Below, piece by piece: positions 9,428-21,090 of a stretch of DNA of 64,000 nucleotides (the first letter of the stretch is position 1; each line of letters begins with the position of its first letter). Made by a program: the position numbers and the translations under genes. Below the pieces are notes generated by a model. That model saw only the letters and a list, made by a program, of their open reading frames with translations. It was not told the DNA's origin and made no database searches. The stretch is from assembly GCF_000092905.1 (NCBI RefSeq), contig NC_014098.1, forward strand, positions 3,286,001 through 3,350,000, in the 5' to 3' direction. Source of the stretch: Kyrpidia tusciae DSM 2912. Lineage in GTDB: Bacteria > Bacillota > Bacilli > Kyrpidiales > Kyrpidiaceae.

Positions 9428-10531
9428 TCAGCAATCCACCTCCCCCAGAACGATGTCCACGGCGCCGAGAATCGCGATCAGATTGGCCATGCTCTGCCCT
9501 TGGAGCAGAGAGGGCAACAGCTGCAGATTGACAAAAGACGGCCGGCGAAACTTCACCCGGTAGGGCTTATCCTTTCCATCGCTGACAAAATACACCCCGA
9601 GTTCCCCCCGGGCCCCTTCGATGGCGCTGTAATACTCGCCGGCGGGAGGCCGGACGAACTTCGGAGCCTTGCCCATCACCGGACCATCGGGAATCTGCTC
9701 GCAGGCCTGCTCCACAATGCGAAGAGATTGTTCCATCTCGCGGAGATGCAGGATGTACCGGTCATAACAGTCGCCGTGCTCGCCCACGGGAATCTCGAAG
9801 TCAAAGCGGTCGTAGACAGAATAGGGCCGATTTTTTCGAAGATCCCATTTCAGTCCGGTACAGCGCAAATTCACTCCGGACAGGGAGTAGGCGATGGCCG
9901 TGTCCGCATCATAGGCGCCGATGCCCCGGACGCGGTTGAGAAAGATCTCGTTGCCGGTGATCAGGTCGTCGAGCATCTTCAAGCTTTCCCGCATGTGGGG
10001 CACAAACTCCCGCACCTTGTCGATCCAGCCCGGGGGCGCATCCCACTTCACGCCGCCGATCCGCATATAGTTGTACGTTAACCTCGCTCCGCTGATCTCG
10101 TTGAACAGTTGCACGATCCGCTCCCGGTCTTGAAATGCATACAAAAAGGGACTCATGGCCCCGAGGTCGAGGAGATACGTGCCGATAAAGAGCAGGTGCG
10201 AGGCGATGCGGTTGAGTTCCATGACGATGACCCGGAGGTACTCCGCCCGCTCGGGAACCTCCAGGTCCATGGCCTCCTCGACGGCGTGCACCAGGGCGTA
10301 ATTGTTGAGCATTGCCGCCAAGTAATCCATACGGTCGGTGTAAGGGATGATCTGGGTGTACTGCAGATCCTCCGCCAATTTTTCCGTCCCCCGATGCAGG
10401 TAGCCGATCACCGGATCCGCCTCGACGATCGTTTCGCCGTCCAATTTTACGACCACCTGCAGCACCCCGTGGGTGGATGGGTGTTGGGGGCCGACATTCA
10501 TCAGCATTTCTTCCGTTCGCGTATCCGCCAT
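9428..10531 (-). CDS. nuoD: NADH-quinone oxidoreductase subunit D (49 kDa)
   Basis: A 367-residue soluble subunit of the hydrogenase large-subunit family that lines the quinone site. It starts with NVGPQHPSTHGVLQ, holding the HPSTHG loop and the quinone-site histidine. The middle carries GYLHRGTEKLAE and YTDRMDYLAAM, and the end IAILGAVDIVLGEVDC is the usual C-terminus (the D of D-I-V-x-G-E-x-D-R is followed by C here). NuoC and NuoD are separate, not fused. Confidence 0.97.
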   Translation of the reverse strand: MADTRTEEMLMNVGPQHPSTHGVLQVVVKLDGETIVEADPVIGYLHRGTEKLAEDLQYTQIIPYTDRMDYLAAMLNNYALVHAVEEAMDLEVPERAEYLRVIVMELNRIASHLLFIGTYLLDLGAMSPFLYAFQDRERIVQLFNEISGARLTYNYMRIGGVKWDAPPGWIDKVREFVPHMRESLKMLDDLITGNEIFLNRVRGIGAYDADTAIAYSLSGVNLRCTGLKWDLRKNRPYSVYDRFDFEIPVGEHGDCYDRYILHLREMEQSLRIVEQACEQIPDGPVMGKAPKFVRPPAGEYYSAIEGARGELGVYFVSDGKDKPYRVKFRRPSFVNLQLLPSLLQGQSMANLIAILGAVDIVLGEVDC

Positions 10532-10544
10532 TGTTCACCCCACC

Positions 10545-11357
10545 TCAATCAAACGGGGAATAGTCCTTGCGCAGCGGATGACCCTGCCAATCGTCGGGCA
10601 TCATGATCCGCCGCAAATCCGGATGGTCGGCAAAGGTCACGCCGAGCAGGTCATAAATTTCCCGCTCATCCCAGTTCGCTCCCGGGAACACCGGGACCAA
10701 GGAGGGAACCACCGGCGCTTCCCGGGGGGCACGGACTTTGATTCCCACCATGGTGGCTTCGGGAATCCGAGTCAGAAAGGCCGTCACCTCTATGTAGCCT
10801 TCCTTTGGGTAATCCGTGCCGGCGATGGCCTCCAAATAACGAAAGCCAAGCCCATCCCCCTCTTTGAGATAAGCCGCCACCTCTCGCCAGGATTCCCTTT
10901 TGATGAGGAGCATAGGAGTGAATTTTTTCACTTCCCCTGCCTCAACCGCATCGGGATAGCGTTCCTGAATCCGCCTGAGCACATCGTCCAACAGGGCTTT
11001 CGCCGGAGCTTCTCGGGGGTCGGGGGGCTTAGGGGCCGCCGATGGTTTCCCGGCCGCCTTCGTTGCGGGTCTCGCCGCCTCCGGCTTGGCCGAGCCGCCG
11101 TCTGCACCCGCGGGTTTGGCCCCGGGGTGTCCTCCCTTCGGCGGCACCGCCCGGGGCGCATCGACGGTCTCCGACGACGCCTCGCTGGAAGCTGCATCCT
11201 TCTCGCCTCCGCGGCTCGGAGGCACTCGGCCCTCCCCTTGGATATCCGAAGGTCCGGCCTCTGTCCCTTCAGCCTGACCCCGCTCCCCGGGGCTCGCATC
11301 CTTCGGCTGCGAGTGTCTCCGACCCGAATCTCGCTCCTCCCGTCTGTCCTCGGTCAT
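10545..11357 (-). CDS. nuoC: NADH-quinone oxidoreductase subunit C with long low-complexity N-terminus
   Basis: A 270-residue protein in two parts. Residues 1-120 are rich in Ala, Pro, Gly, Lys and Glu and look disordered. Residues from about 121 are the 30-kDa subunit core ([53 protein letters not shown]). The core acts in the peripheral arm beside NuoD and NuoB. Its ATG overlaps the nuoB stop by four bases (ATGA). Similar but shorter extensions occur in other Firmicutes; its role here is unknown. Confidence 0.95.
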
Positions 11358-11905
11358 GCCCGCCCCACCTTTCTCCTCGCCTCCATGCGAATCTTCTCCT
11401 GCAATTTGTTCAGCCCGTAGATCAGAGCGGGCGGAGAGGGGGGACAGCCCGGGATATAAACGTCAACGGGAACCACTTGGTCGACGCCCTTCATCACGGC
11501 GTAGGAACGTACGTAGGGACCGCCCGCCGTGGCACAACTGCCCATGGCCACCACCCATTTTGGATCCGGCATCTGGTCGTAGAGCCGCCGAAGGAGCGGC
11601 CCCATCTTTTTGGTGACCGTTCCGGCGACGATCATGACGTCGGACTGCCGGGGTGAGGCGCGAAAGATAATGCCGAATCGGTCAAGATCATAATGGGACG
11701 CCCCGGTTCCCATCATCTCGATGGCGCAGCAGGCCAACCCAAAGGTAAGGGGCCACAGGGAGTTCGACCGGGCCCAGGCTTTCAACTGTTCGATGGTGCT
11801 GACCAACACCCCCGCCCGGGTGAGATCGGCGGATTCCTCGTCACTGAAACCTTCGAATTCCACCCGGCCCGCGGGCCGCGAGCCCGGCACCGGATTCATT
11901 TCCAT
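11354..11905 (-). CDS. nuoB: NADH-quinone oxidoreductase subunit B (N2 cluster)
   Basis: A 183-residue subunit that ligates the terminal 4Fe-4S cluster N2. The cysteines are visible in [11 protein letters not shown], in [10 protein letters not shown] and in [12 protein letters not shown]. Two in-frame ATGs are possible: 11905 (GAAAGGTGC six bases upstream, overlapping nuoA by 10 bases) and 11899 (ATGA overlap). I prefer 11905 for the better ribosome binding site. A frame open 37 codons further upstream is within nuoA. Confidence 0.95.
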
Positions 11906-12267
11906 TCCAGCACCTTCTTTCGCCAGGCGTACACCAGGCCGATGACCAACATGGCCATAAAAATCAGCGCCTCCACCAACCCGAATAGACCGAGCTCGTG
12001 AAACGCCACCGCCCAAGGGTACAAGAAAAGGATTTCGACATCGAATACCACGAATAGAAGCGCAAAGAGGTAATAGCGGGCGTTATATTGGACCCGCGCG
12101 TCCCCCACAGGCTCCACGCCGCTCTCGTAGGGTTCCAGCTTCTCCCGGGACGGATGAGCGGGCCGAAGCCACTTCCCCAATGTCAAGGCCACCACCGCAA
12201 GGGCGATGGCAAGAACGACGAAGATCACGACAAACAGATACGAGTTCCAGTACGCCGTCACGGGCAA
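11896..12267 (-). CDS. nuoA: NADH-quinone oxidoreductase subunit A
   Basis: A 123-residue, three-helix membrane subunit. The conserved loop [24 protein letters not shown] (parts: [19 protein letters not shown]) and [13 protein letters not shown] identify it. It is the first gene of the 11-gene nuo operon. A consensus promoter lies about 80 bases upstream. Confidence 0.96.
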
Positions 12268-18100: not shown

Positions 18101-18853
18101 TCAATGGGCTTCATGAGGCAATTTTTGTGAAATGTACACCAGAGTCAACACCGTGAAAACGAAGGATTGGATCGTACCGACGAAGATACTGTACGCGATC
18201 CAGATGATCAGCGTCGGGACGTTTCCGATGGGCAGCCAACCGAAGGCCATGGGGATTCCGAGCAAAACGGAGATCAACACTTCCCCCGCGAAAATATTGC
18301 CGTATAACCGCAAGCCAAGCGTCAGAAATTTCGCGACTTCCTCCAAGATATTGATGGGGAGGAAGATGAAGAACGGTTCAAAATAATGTTTGAAATAGGC
18401 ACCCGGACGCCGTAGTCCCAGATAGTGGCTAAGCAAAATGACCATCAGGGACATGGCCATGGTCACGCTCATGTTCGCCGTCGGGGCCACCCACCAATTG
18501 ACAGACTGCCCGGGTTCAACCCCGAGTTCGGGGATGCCGTTCGGATGTGCAGTTGTGATGTTGAATGGCATATCGCTCATGTTGGAGATAAAAATGTAGA
18601 TAATGAGCGTCAGCGCCAGAGGAACGAACTTGTCGGCCTGCTTTTCGCTCATCATGTCCGTGGCCAGGCCCCGGACAAATCCGTACAACCACTCCAGGAC
18701 ATTCTGCATGCCCCTCGGGCTGCGCATGCTCATCCGGCTTGTCCCCATCCTGGCGAGGACCGCCACGATGATCATCATCAAGAGCGACATCCCTATGGTG
18801 GCGAGATTGAACTTCATTCCCCACAGCACAAGAATCGGATGCGCACCTTCCAC
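18101..18853 (-). CDS. atpB: ATP synthase Fo a subunit
   Basis: A 250-residue polytopic stator subunit with the proton half-channels. The essential arginine is in FLTLGLRLYGNIFAGEVLI, and the last helix has FVFTVLTLVYISQ. It starts with GTG after GGGGGGAAACGAAGC, 39 bases after the atpI stop. Confidence 0.96.
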   Translation of the reverse strand: MEGAHPILVLWGMKFNLATIGMSLLMMIIVAVLARMGTSRMSMRSPRGMQNVLEWLYGFVRGLATDMMSEKQADKFVPLALTLIIYIFISNMSDMPFNITTAHPNGIPELGVEPGQSVNWWVAPTANMSVTMAMSLMVILLSHYLGLRRPGAYFKHYFEPFFIFLPINILEEVAKFLTLGLRLYGNIFAGEVLISVLLGIPMAFGWLPIGNVPTLIIWIAYSIFVGTIQSFVFTVLTLVYISQKLPHEAH

Positions 18854-18892
18854 CGCTTCGTTTCCCCCCTTTCGGGCCGAACCAGCCTGAGA

Positions 18893-19288
18893 TTAGGATT
18901 TGTCGCGCCTCAGAGCCCGCACGTGGTCCCCGAGGGCGAGGGCCGGACCGATCCAGACCGCCGCCAAAGCGGCCAAAGGATTGGCCCACTCCGGGTGCCG
19001 GCTGAGCAGAAGGACCATCAAGAGGACGGCGGCGATCCGGGAGACCGCCGCGAATCCCGGGCGCACCTTGGCATGTTCCGCCGCCACCGCACCGGCTTGC
19101 CGGGCTTGTCGGGCGGCGCTGATCAGGTAATACACGCCGACGAAAGATCCCACGGCAAGTCCTGCGACCAGCGGACGCCAAGCCGCGGGTGCCGCGCCCC
19201 AGAGCAGTACAAAAGCCGCCGTGGCGTACAGGGTGTTCCGTACGGCGCGCCGCACCCGAGTTTCGAATTCCCCCATCTCACCGGCCAT
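18893..19288 (-). CDS. atpI: ATP synthase subunit I (AtpI)
   Basis: A 131-residue protein with four predicted membrane helices. It lies immediately before atpB as in most Firmicutes and has the AtpI-like sequence of basic loops between short helices. AtpI helps insert subunit c and assemble the c-ring. It overlaps atpZ by 11 bases, implying coupled translation. Confidence 0.85.
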   Translation of the reverse strand: MAGEMGEFETRVRRAVRNTLYATAAFVLLWGAAPAAWRPLVAGLAVGSFVGVYYLISAARQARQAGAVAAEHAKVRPGFAAVSRIAAVLLMVLLLSRHPEWANPLAALAAVWIGPALALGDHVRALRRDKS

Positions 19289-19574
19289 CCCGCGAGGTGC
19301 CCCCCATCACCGTCTGCACCAAATGCACGACACCGAGGATCCCCGCGGCCAGCCCCAGGAGCACCCCGACGAGCAACATCCACGGCGACGTTCCCCAGAG
19401 ACGGTCCAACCAGCGCCCGAGATACACTCCGGCCAGAACGGCGGCCGCGAGCTCCACGCCAATCCCCGAAACGAGGGCGAAAGCCCGCCAGGGCCGGCGT
19501 TCCTCTGACCCCCGTCCTCCTTCGGGCCTCGGGTCGTCACCCCCGGATTCCCCTTGGCCCCGCGCCATCTCCAT
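19278..19574 (-). CDS. atpZ: AtpZ/AtpI-type small membrane protein
   Basis: A 98-residue protein: a hydrophilic N-terminal 30 residues (GQGESGGDDPRPEGG) followed by two membrane helices separated by GRWLDRLWGTSPWMLL. This loop is the signature of the AtpZ family (putative Fo-associated Ca/Mg transporter). It is the first gene of the atp operon. The start is the ATG with GGAGGGATGG upstream, after a 190-base leader carrying an intrinsic terminator. Confidence 0.85.
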   Translation of the reverse strand: MEMARGQGESGGDDPRPEGGRGSEERRPWRAFALVSGIGVELAAAVLAGVYLGRWLDRLWGTSPWMLLVGVLLGLAAGILGVVHLVQTVMGGTSRDGR

Positions 19575-19640
19575 CCCTCCGAGGAGGGCCCCGGGCCGCG
19601 GGTGAGTCCGCAGGCGTTCGCCGCCCGTGGCATACAGCCC

Positions 19641-19666
19641 GAAAAAAACCGCCCATTCGGGCGGTT
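19641..19666 (-). terminator. Intrinsic terminator inside the atp operon leader
   Basis: On the minus strand an 8-bp stem AACCGCCC / GGGCGGTT closed by a GAAT loop is followed by seven T residues. It lies 67 bases before atpZ and downstream of the only good promoter, so transcripts of the atp operon must read through it. It could also stop read-through from the thiolase gene. See findings. Confidence 0.85.
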
Positions 19667-19676
19667 CCGGCTCCCA

Positions 19677-19751
19677 GGCCCTGCCGAATTCACGCGATCT
19701 AGGGCCGCTGGTGGTTTCACGCTGCGCAACAGGTGTATCCCACCGTGAAAC
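19677..19751 (-). promoter_or_regulatory. Structured leader of the atp operon (two hairpins before the terminator)
   Basis: The leader RNA can form a hairpin GTTTCACG / CGTGAAAC (19751-19714, 22-base loop with an internal GGTG/CACC pair). A second hairpin GGCCCT / AGGGCC (19706-19677) follows, and then the terminator hairpin. Three consecutive stems between promoter and first gene are the layout of an attenuation or riboswitch-like leader. No known riboswitch class was recognised. Confidence 0.45.
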
Positions 19752-19768
19752 GCCCTATTCCCAGCCCC

Positions 19769-19798
19769 ATAGTACACAAAACGCTGTACGGTTGTCAA
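19769..19798 (-). promoter_or_regulatory. Sigma-A promoter of the atp operon
   Basis: A perfect TTGACA (19798-19793), an 18-base spacer and TACTAT (19774-19769) on the minus strand place the start site near 19761. This is about 190 bases upstream of atpZ. No other promoter-like sequence is seen between the leader terminator and atpZ. Confidence 0.75.
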
Positions 19799-19905
19799 CG
19801 AAACCTGTACGGAAACGGGACGTGCCGCGGCTTTGGCCGAAAATCCTCACGATTTGTTCAGATTTCCGGAAATGCCTGGAGATCGGCCTGGTCGGAGTAC
19901 TCCGG

Positions 19906-21090
19906 TCACCGGACGTTTTCCACGATCATCGCCGCCCCTTGGCCTCCTCCGATGCACAGCGTGGCCAAACCATAACGTACGCCCCGGCGCTTCATTTCGT
20001 GGATGAGGGTGACCAGGATTCGGGCTCCACTGGCGCCGATGGGGTGGCCCAAGGCGATGGCTCCGCCGTTGACATTGAGAATCTCATCCGGAATGTTGAG
20101 CTCCCGGGCCACGGCCAGGGACTGAGCTGCAAAGGCTTCATTGGCCTCCACCAGTCCGATGTCCGCCATGGTAAGCCCTGCCCGGTCCAGGGCTTTGCGC
20201 GTCGCATAAATCGGCCCCAGCCCCATCACCGCGGGATCGAGGCCCGCCGAGGCATAGGAGACGACCCGGACCAGGGGTTTCGCGCCCGATTCCGTTGCCC
20301 GGGCCGCGCTCATCACCGCCAGGGCTGCCGCGCCGTCGTTGAGCCCCGAGGCGTTGCCCGCCGTGACGGTGCCGTCCTTTTTGAAGGCCGGGCGGAGCTT
20401 CGCCAGGGCCTCCGCGGTGGTCGACGGCCGGGGGTGTTCGTCCGTGTCAAAAACGGAGACCTCCCCTTTCCGCCCCCGGATCTCCACTGGGACGATCTCG
20501 TCCTTGAAACGGCCTTCGGCGATGGCCGCCGCCGACCGCCGCTGGCTGCGCAGAGCGAAGGCGTCTTGCTCCTCCCGGGTGAGTCCGTAGCGCTCCGCCA
20601 CATTCTCCGCCGTGATCCCCATGTGCACGTCGGTGAAGGCGCACCAGAGCCCGTCTTTGATCATCGAATCCACCAGTTCGGCGTGGCCCATGCGCAGACC
20701 GCTTCGCGCCCCCTCGGTGAGATAGGGCGCCCGGCTCATATTCTCCATGCCGCCGGCCAAAAGCATCTCGGCATCCCCGGCCCTGATCGCCTGGGCGGCG
20801 AGCATCACCGCTTTGAGTCCGGAGCCGCAGACCTTGTTGATCGTCATGGATGGGACTTCTTGGGGAATGCCCGCCTTCATCGCCGCCTGGCGGGCGGGGT
20901 TTTGCCCCAGACCGGCCTGAAGGACGTTGCCCATAATAACTTCGTCGAGCCTTTCCGGATCCACCCCGCCCCGGGCCGCCGCCTCTTTGAGCACCGCCGC
21001 ACCGAGTTCCGGCGCCGGCACCCGGGACAGTGCCCCTTGAAAAGTTCCGACGGCGGTGCGCACTGCTGAAGTAATCACTACGTCCACCAT
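19906..21090 (-). CDS. Acetyl-CoA C-acetyltransferase (thiolase)
   Basis: A 394-residue thiolase II-type enzyme. It joins or cleaves acetoacetyl-CoA and two acetyl-CoA. The acylated cysteine is residue 88 in [12 protein letters not shown]; later catalytic motifs are [20 protein letters not shown] and CIGGGQGAA. The start at 21090 ([12 protein letters not shown]) follows a GGGAGAGGGAGA site; twelve further upstream codons were not used. It lies about 100 bases after upp, so may be its own unit. A second thiolase occurs at 52953. Confidence 0.93.

Follow-up and report, generated by a model that had tools for sequence, protein, structure and literature searches.

A putative premature-termination leader ahead of the ATP synthase operon of Kyrpidia tusciae

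Leader attenuators and the control of atp operons

Leader attenuators of Gram-positive bacteria, like those of the pyr/PyrR, trp/TRAP and T-box type, consist of a promoter, a leader of 100-200 nt and an intrinsic terminator in front of the operon. In processive antitermination of the LoaP/put type, a short 5' RNA element could let the polymerase pass terminators, and the elements known so far are structured. ATP synthase operons are mostly regarded as nearly constitutive or promoter-regulated and, to our knowledge, this type of operon is not known to use leader attenuation. A search of the open-access literature, a scope outside which most subscription papers lie, gave no report of an atp operon under leader-terminator control.

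The dcw cluster of Rhodobacteraceae is reported to be preceded by UpsM, a long 5' leader that is restricted to the family, contains a Rho-independent terminator and yields an sRNA on termination (PMC5089854). The atp operon of Streptomyces is controlled by Rex, which acts on the DNA at -50 to -22 through TTGTGAANNNNTTCACAA (PMC5355995). Further papers concern the processing of the B. subtilis atpI transcript by RNase Y (PMC11780869), M. tuberculosis sRNAs including the leader attenuators of ilvB and leuA, with no atp one named in the passages concerned (PMC3526491), and the transcriptome of B. methanolicus (PMC4342826).

The locus described here lies in a stretch of 64,000 nucleotides from Kyrpidia tusciae DSM 2912, which as a whole is called the window. 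By sequence, its atp leader resembles the Gram-positive attenuators in having an intrinsic terminator between promoter and first gene, but it differs from them in having no Rfam match, no supported antiterminator and no known site for a ligand or protein. With UpsM, the leader shares an apparent restriction to one family and a terminator ahead of a core operon. However, operon and phylum are different, and the UpsM RNA was measured. The likeness to the Streptomyces system is that an atp operon would be controlled close to its promoter; unlike the Rex site quoted there, the conserved element in the window has its half-sites reversed in order and follows the transcription start. Inspection by eye against the quoted consensus found no TTGTGAANNNNTTCACAA palindrome in 19560-19920. 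As a separate observation, Rex-like palindromes such as TTGTGAACTTTTTCACGG were seen by eye just upstream of the -35 box in several Bacillaceae atp promoters (L087, L063, L069), which suggests that atp may be under redox control in those Bacillaceae.

The probable atp promoter and the intrinsic terminator behind it

The features of the region are as follows.

19906-21090, minus strand: thiolase gene, upstream and in the same direction
19769-19798, minus strand: TTGACA-18-TACTAT, very probably the atp operon promoter, orthologous to that of other Bacilli
19714-19763, minus strand: conserved 50-nt element with a TTTCAC core, approximately +1 to +50, here a GTTTCAC..GTGAAAC inverted repeat
19677-19706, minus strand: second possible hairpin GGCCC..GGGCC, as a structure not significant
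19642-19666, minus strand: intrinsic terminator AACCGCCC-GAAT-GGGCGGTT-TTTTT within the leader, kept in the sister-genus locus L021 with two pair-preserving changes
19569-19641, minus strand: spacer from terminator to atpZ, unconserved and without promoter-like site, with the Shine-Dalgarno sequence GGAGGG at 19580-19575
19278-19568, minus strand: atpZ (PF09527), first operon gene, probable start at the second ATG
18101-19288, minus strand: next operon genes, atpI-like (18893-19288) and atpB (18101-18853)

The promoter named in the earlier note is indeed there. Read on the minus strand, its -35 box TTGACA (19798-19793) is separated by an 18-nt spacer from the -10 box TACTAT (19774-19769), and it is the single promoter-like site that a promoter scan found in 18500-21000, where 0.3 would be expected by chance. 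A sequence-only model of the promoter and the first ~35 nt of the transcript, trained on eight sequences (the window and seven of 80 named loci, picked for looking alike), matched in 41 of 398 genomes of the class; matches occurred in 40 of 41 genomes of family f7 and in 10 of 18 of family f48, with one site per genome. We refer to f7 as Alicyclobacillaceae, since a number of its leaders are identical in sequence to named Alicyclobacillus loci (for example A. cellulosilyticus, A. herbarius and A. montanus). Downstream of the matching sites, AtpB is encoded in 50 of the 53 loci tested and AtpB or AtpZ in 52, the exception being L149, a borderline partial match (E 0.01). Among the 80 named Bacilli atp loci, one rule placed a TTG-type promoter ahead of the operon in 79, although it mis-picked three of them (L064, L075, L088), where the true promoter is TTGACA-17-TATGCT. 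By orthology, the promoter in the window is therefore, with high probability, that of the atp operon, which would place the terminator within the atp leader. Two further sequences within 19862-19775 (minus strand) are possible regulator sites: CCGTACAG recurs at a distance of 21 bp around the -35 box, and the upstream TGAACAAATCGTGAGGATT is found unchanged in the sister genus.

The terminator consists of AACCGCCC-GAAT-GGGCGGTT followed by five further T. The earlier description of an 8-bp stem plus seven T was right about its presence but counted two T twice, as the seven-T run (19648-19642) begins with two T inside the stem. A strict search (at least eight Watson-Crick pairs, a loop of 3-8 and at least five T in six) found it as the sole such site on both strands of the 64 kb, and when the leader was shuffled 5000 times with its dinucleotides kept, a terminator of this quality arose once. 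A looser search returned four sites in the window, and a standard scan overlooked the leader terminator, presumably because G-T pairs carried the stem into the T run.

The protein encoded downstream of the leader matches PF09527 (AtpZ, E 3.6e-18), and the genes for an AtpI-like protein, AtpB and AtpE follow. Translation of atpZ probably starts at the second ATG (19568), because GGAGGG stands 6 nt ahead of ATGGCG in the window and 7 nt before the same ATGGCG in L021. With this start, the gap between terminator and atpZ amounts to ~73 nt instead of the 67 GC-rich bases noted before, while the lack of a promoter-like site in it stands. Behind the atp genes, ORFs resembling nuoA-D (by eye) run in the same direction (9428-12267, minus strand), so that complex I, too, could be affected when polymerase reads through the leader. 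In the B. subtilis group, a degenerate remnant seems to occupy the place of atpZ, within a leader of ~250 nt before atpI (L064 leader).

Conservation of the leader and of its first 50 nt

The sister genus was compared through L003, which equals L021. Its promoter is 90% identical to that of the window; the corresponding values are 85% for 19768-19756, 82% for the first hairpin, 77% from there up to the terminator and 88% for the terminator, and identity falls to 52% in the next 66 nt, which are GC-rich and unconserved and contain no promoter-like site in either genus. For comparison, atpZ is 60% and the thiolase gene 75% identical. In the consensus fold of window and L021, two pairs are changed, both in the terminator, and both still pair. 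The layout of promoter, leader and terminator was seen in three genomes, two of them nearly identical (the assembly of a fourth is without atpB), and with this thin sampling it appears specific to the window's family.

The length of the leader behind the promoter varies from less than 100 nt to ~1.1 kb. In the f7 genome L140 (locus 1500-2650), ~1.1 kb separate the conserved atp promoter from the AtpZ match, and the 50-nt element is preserved in full. L021 is the only one of the 80 named loci with a strict terminator downstream of the true promoter, and none of the 40 f7 leaders has one within its first 200 nt. Terminator-like sites occur in 8 of 42 leaders (40 from f7, the window and L021) and in 248 of 1260 shuffles (20%), thus without enrichment, and a leader terminator as a common f7 trait was rejected; the sites of L116 and L106 may be due to chance. 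The earlier note had regarded a lack of conservation in relatives as evidence against attenuation. The leader is conserved in the sister genus, but no other family examined has the strict terminator in its leaders.

Besides the promoter, the start of the transcript is shared beyond the window's family, which is a new observation here. Positions 19763-19714 align nearly without indels with 21 of the 40 f7 leaders, and these, the window and L021 form the alignment used; the 19 remaining leaders comprise 7 that nearly duplicate others and 12 that differ in the second half or are offset by a base. The mean identity of the window to f7 is 61% within this element and 21-25% directly behind it, as compared to a mean of 26% and a maximum of 43% for 2000 shuffled windows. 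Across nine f7 genera, the first 25 nt are 87% identical and the following 25 nt 67%, with a drop to 25% thereafter.

A model built from this alignment matches 29 of the 41 f7 genomes at E below 1e-5, training sequences included, while the other 12 are without a strong full-length copy. The element, found across two families, has one full-strength copy per genome, and further matches are weak, with E values of 1e-4 or worse. Owing to the GTTTCAC..GTGAAAC inverted repeat, the copy in the window is matched on its own reverse strand as well. Ten candidates outside atp loci, of which f7 contributed nine and the sister genus one, were inspected and taken as chance: seven lie inside an ORF of at least 90 codons, two (L162, L163) overlap the end of an ORF, and L166 from the sister genus (E 5.7e-4) lies in no listed ORF. 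Many atp leaders of Bacillaceae and Staphylococcaceae (L050-L100) share a GGTTTTCA motif ~20 nt after the -10 box, which is possibly the counterpart of the TTTCAC element of the Alicyclobacillaceae.

The two hairpins reported behind the promoter, GTTTCAC (19751)..GTGAAAC (19714) and GGCCC (19706)..GGGCC (19677), can both be found in the sequence, and both are weak. The fold of the whole leader has a z of -2.3, for which the terminator is partly responsible, and 6 of 200 shuffles are equally good. When the substitutions between window and L021 were placed at random, structure was preserved as well in 121 to 264 of 2000 placements with the terminator included and in 291 to 863 of 2000, depending on the measure, without it, where preservation is thus not significant; for this reason, the terminator is the only safe structure in the leader. 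An antiterminator pairing of GGGCG-UUUC with the 5' arm of the terminator is possible at the same place in both genera, but shuffles do as well. It was equalled in 227 (window) and 426 (L021) of 2000 trials when the first 45 nt were shuffled, and in 490 and 1154 of 2000, respectively, when the whole upstream leader was shuffled.

No consensus RNA structure was found in the 50-nt element, whose best local hairpin shows no covariation among 23 sequences. Of the covarying stems and the antiterminator that the earlier note proposed to look for, neither was found beyond chance, and the switching RNA structure of an attenuator receives no support. A long hairpin AGGYGTTTC/GAAACRCCT in 15 Alicyclobacillus-type leaders was also discarded (96% paired, covariation within that of shuffles). 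An alternative helix set beat nearly all shuffles in three of five measures; the sequences are closely related, so it was not relied on. A known riboswitch, T-box or other Rfam leader was not encountered either, as neither the window nor 18 related loci gave a match above the gathering scores, the weak matches lying far below. As a candidate leader peptide, both genera have an open GTG frame of eight codons; it is without a good ribosome-binding site and, by eye, its start is not conserved in f7. The element is like those of the LoaP/put type in being short and 5'-located but differs in lacking a consensus structure. As the organism's own genome holds only one NusG-family match in the search for the NusG paralogue LoaP, antitermination of this type is unlikely.

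Possible roles of the terminator

Given the orthology of the promoter and the fact that the sister genus has kept the block from promoter to terminator, atp transcription likely begins at this promoter and has to pass the terminator, as had been proposed. That the leader controls or sets atp transcription by premature termination is, in our judgement, a proposal with an even chance of being right. The atp operon would be transcribed from the promoter at 19798-19769, RNA polymerase would soon meet the intrinsic terminator at 19666-19642, and some transcripts would end as a leader RNA of ~120 nt, with the output of ATP synthase depending on the fraction of read-through. The 50-nt start (19763-19714) would be the likeliest site of action for a factor or condition that influences initiation or read-through. 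An active terminator in vivo, a regulated instead of a fixed read-through and a sensor role of the element are inferred; a constitutively leaky terminator would give the same sequence picture. The conservation of the element's primary sequence would fit a factor that works through it at the DNA or RNA level.

The same compact unit, conserved as a block, might instead produce a ~120-nt sRNA acting in trans, with the operon served by leaky read-through or another promoter. UpsM is a precedent for this, an sRNA arising from the terminator in the Rhodobacter dcw leader (PMC5089854). We consider a trans-acting sRNA unlikely, as in 40 of 41 f7 genomes the atp transcript has this very promoter and start, the f7 leaders have no strict terminator in their first 200 nt, and the genome holds no second strong copy of the element besides its own reverse strand. 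The earlier note also suggested that the terminator mainly halts read-through from the thiolase unit, with an unseen promoter between terminator and atpZ driving the operon. No terminator was found between the thiolase stop and the atp promoter, and a strict terminator upstream of the atp promoter occurs in at least 11 of the 80 named loci, or 14 with the three mis-picked ones, which had been flagged as having it behind the promoter although it really lies upstream of TTGACA-17-TATGCT. In those loci, however, the terminator precedes the promoter, and the 66 nt behind the terminator in the window and L021 offer no promoter-like site, so that this suggestion gains no support and seems improbable to us.

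It is equally improbable, in our opinion, that a repressor or activator uses the conserved start, immediately behind the promoter, as its DNA operator and that the terminator is incidental. Conservation of primary sequence without covariation would suit an operator, as would the TTTCAC repeats, which in f7 are mostly ~21 bp apart (by eye from the alignment) and in the window form an inverted repeat. Yet the conserved terminator would be left unexplained, and without a second convincing site in the genome the regulator would have to be one dedicated to a single operon.

Returning to premature termination, a far-reaching form of it can be put forward tentatively: the first 50 nt of the atp mRNA in Alicyclobacillaceae and the window's family might be a dedicated, undescribed regulatory element, such as an RNA-protein or antitermination site, which in the window's lineage would control read-through of a true terminator and thereby set ATP synthase by attenuation. 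Being compact, the element lends itself to mutation, pull-down and in vitro transcription. If the proposal is true, the terminator passed by every atp transcript would be a new control point on the energy supply of the cell.
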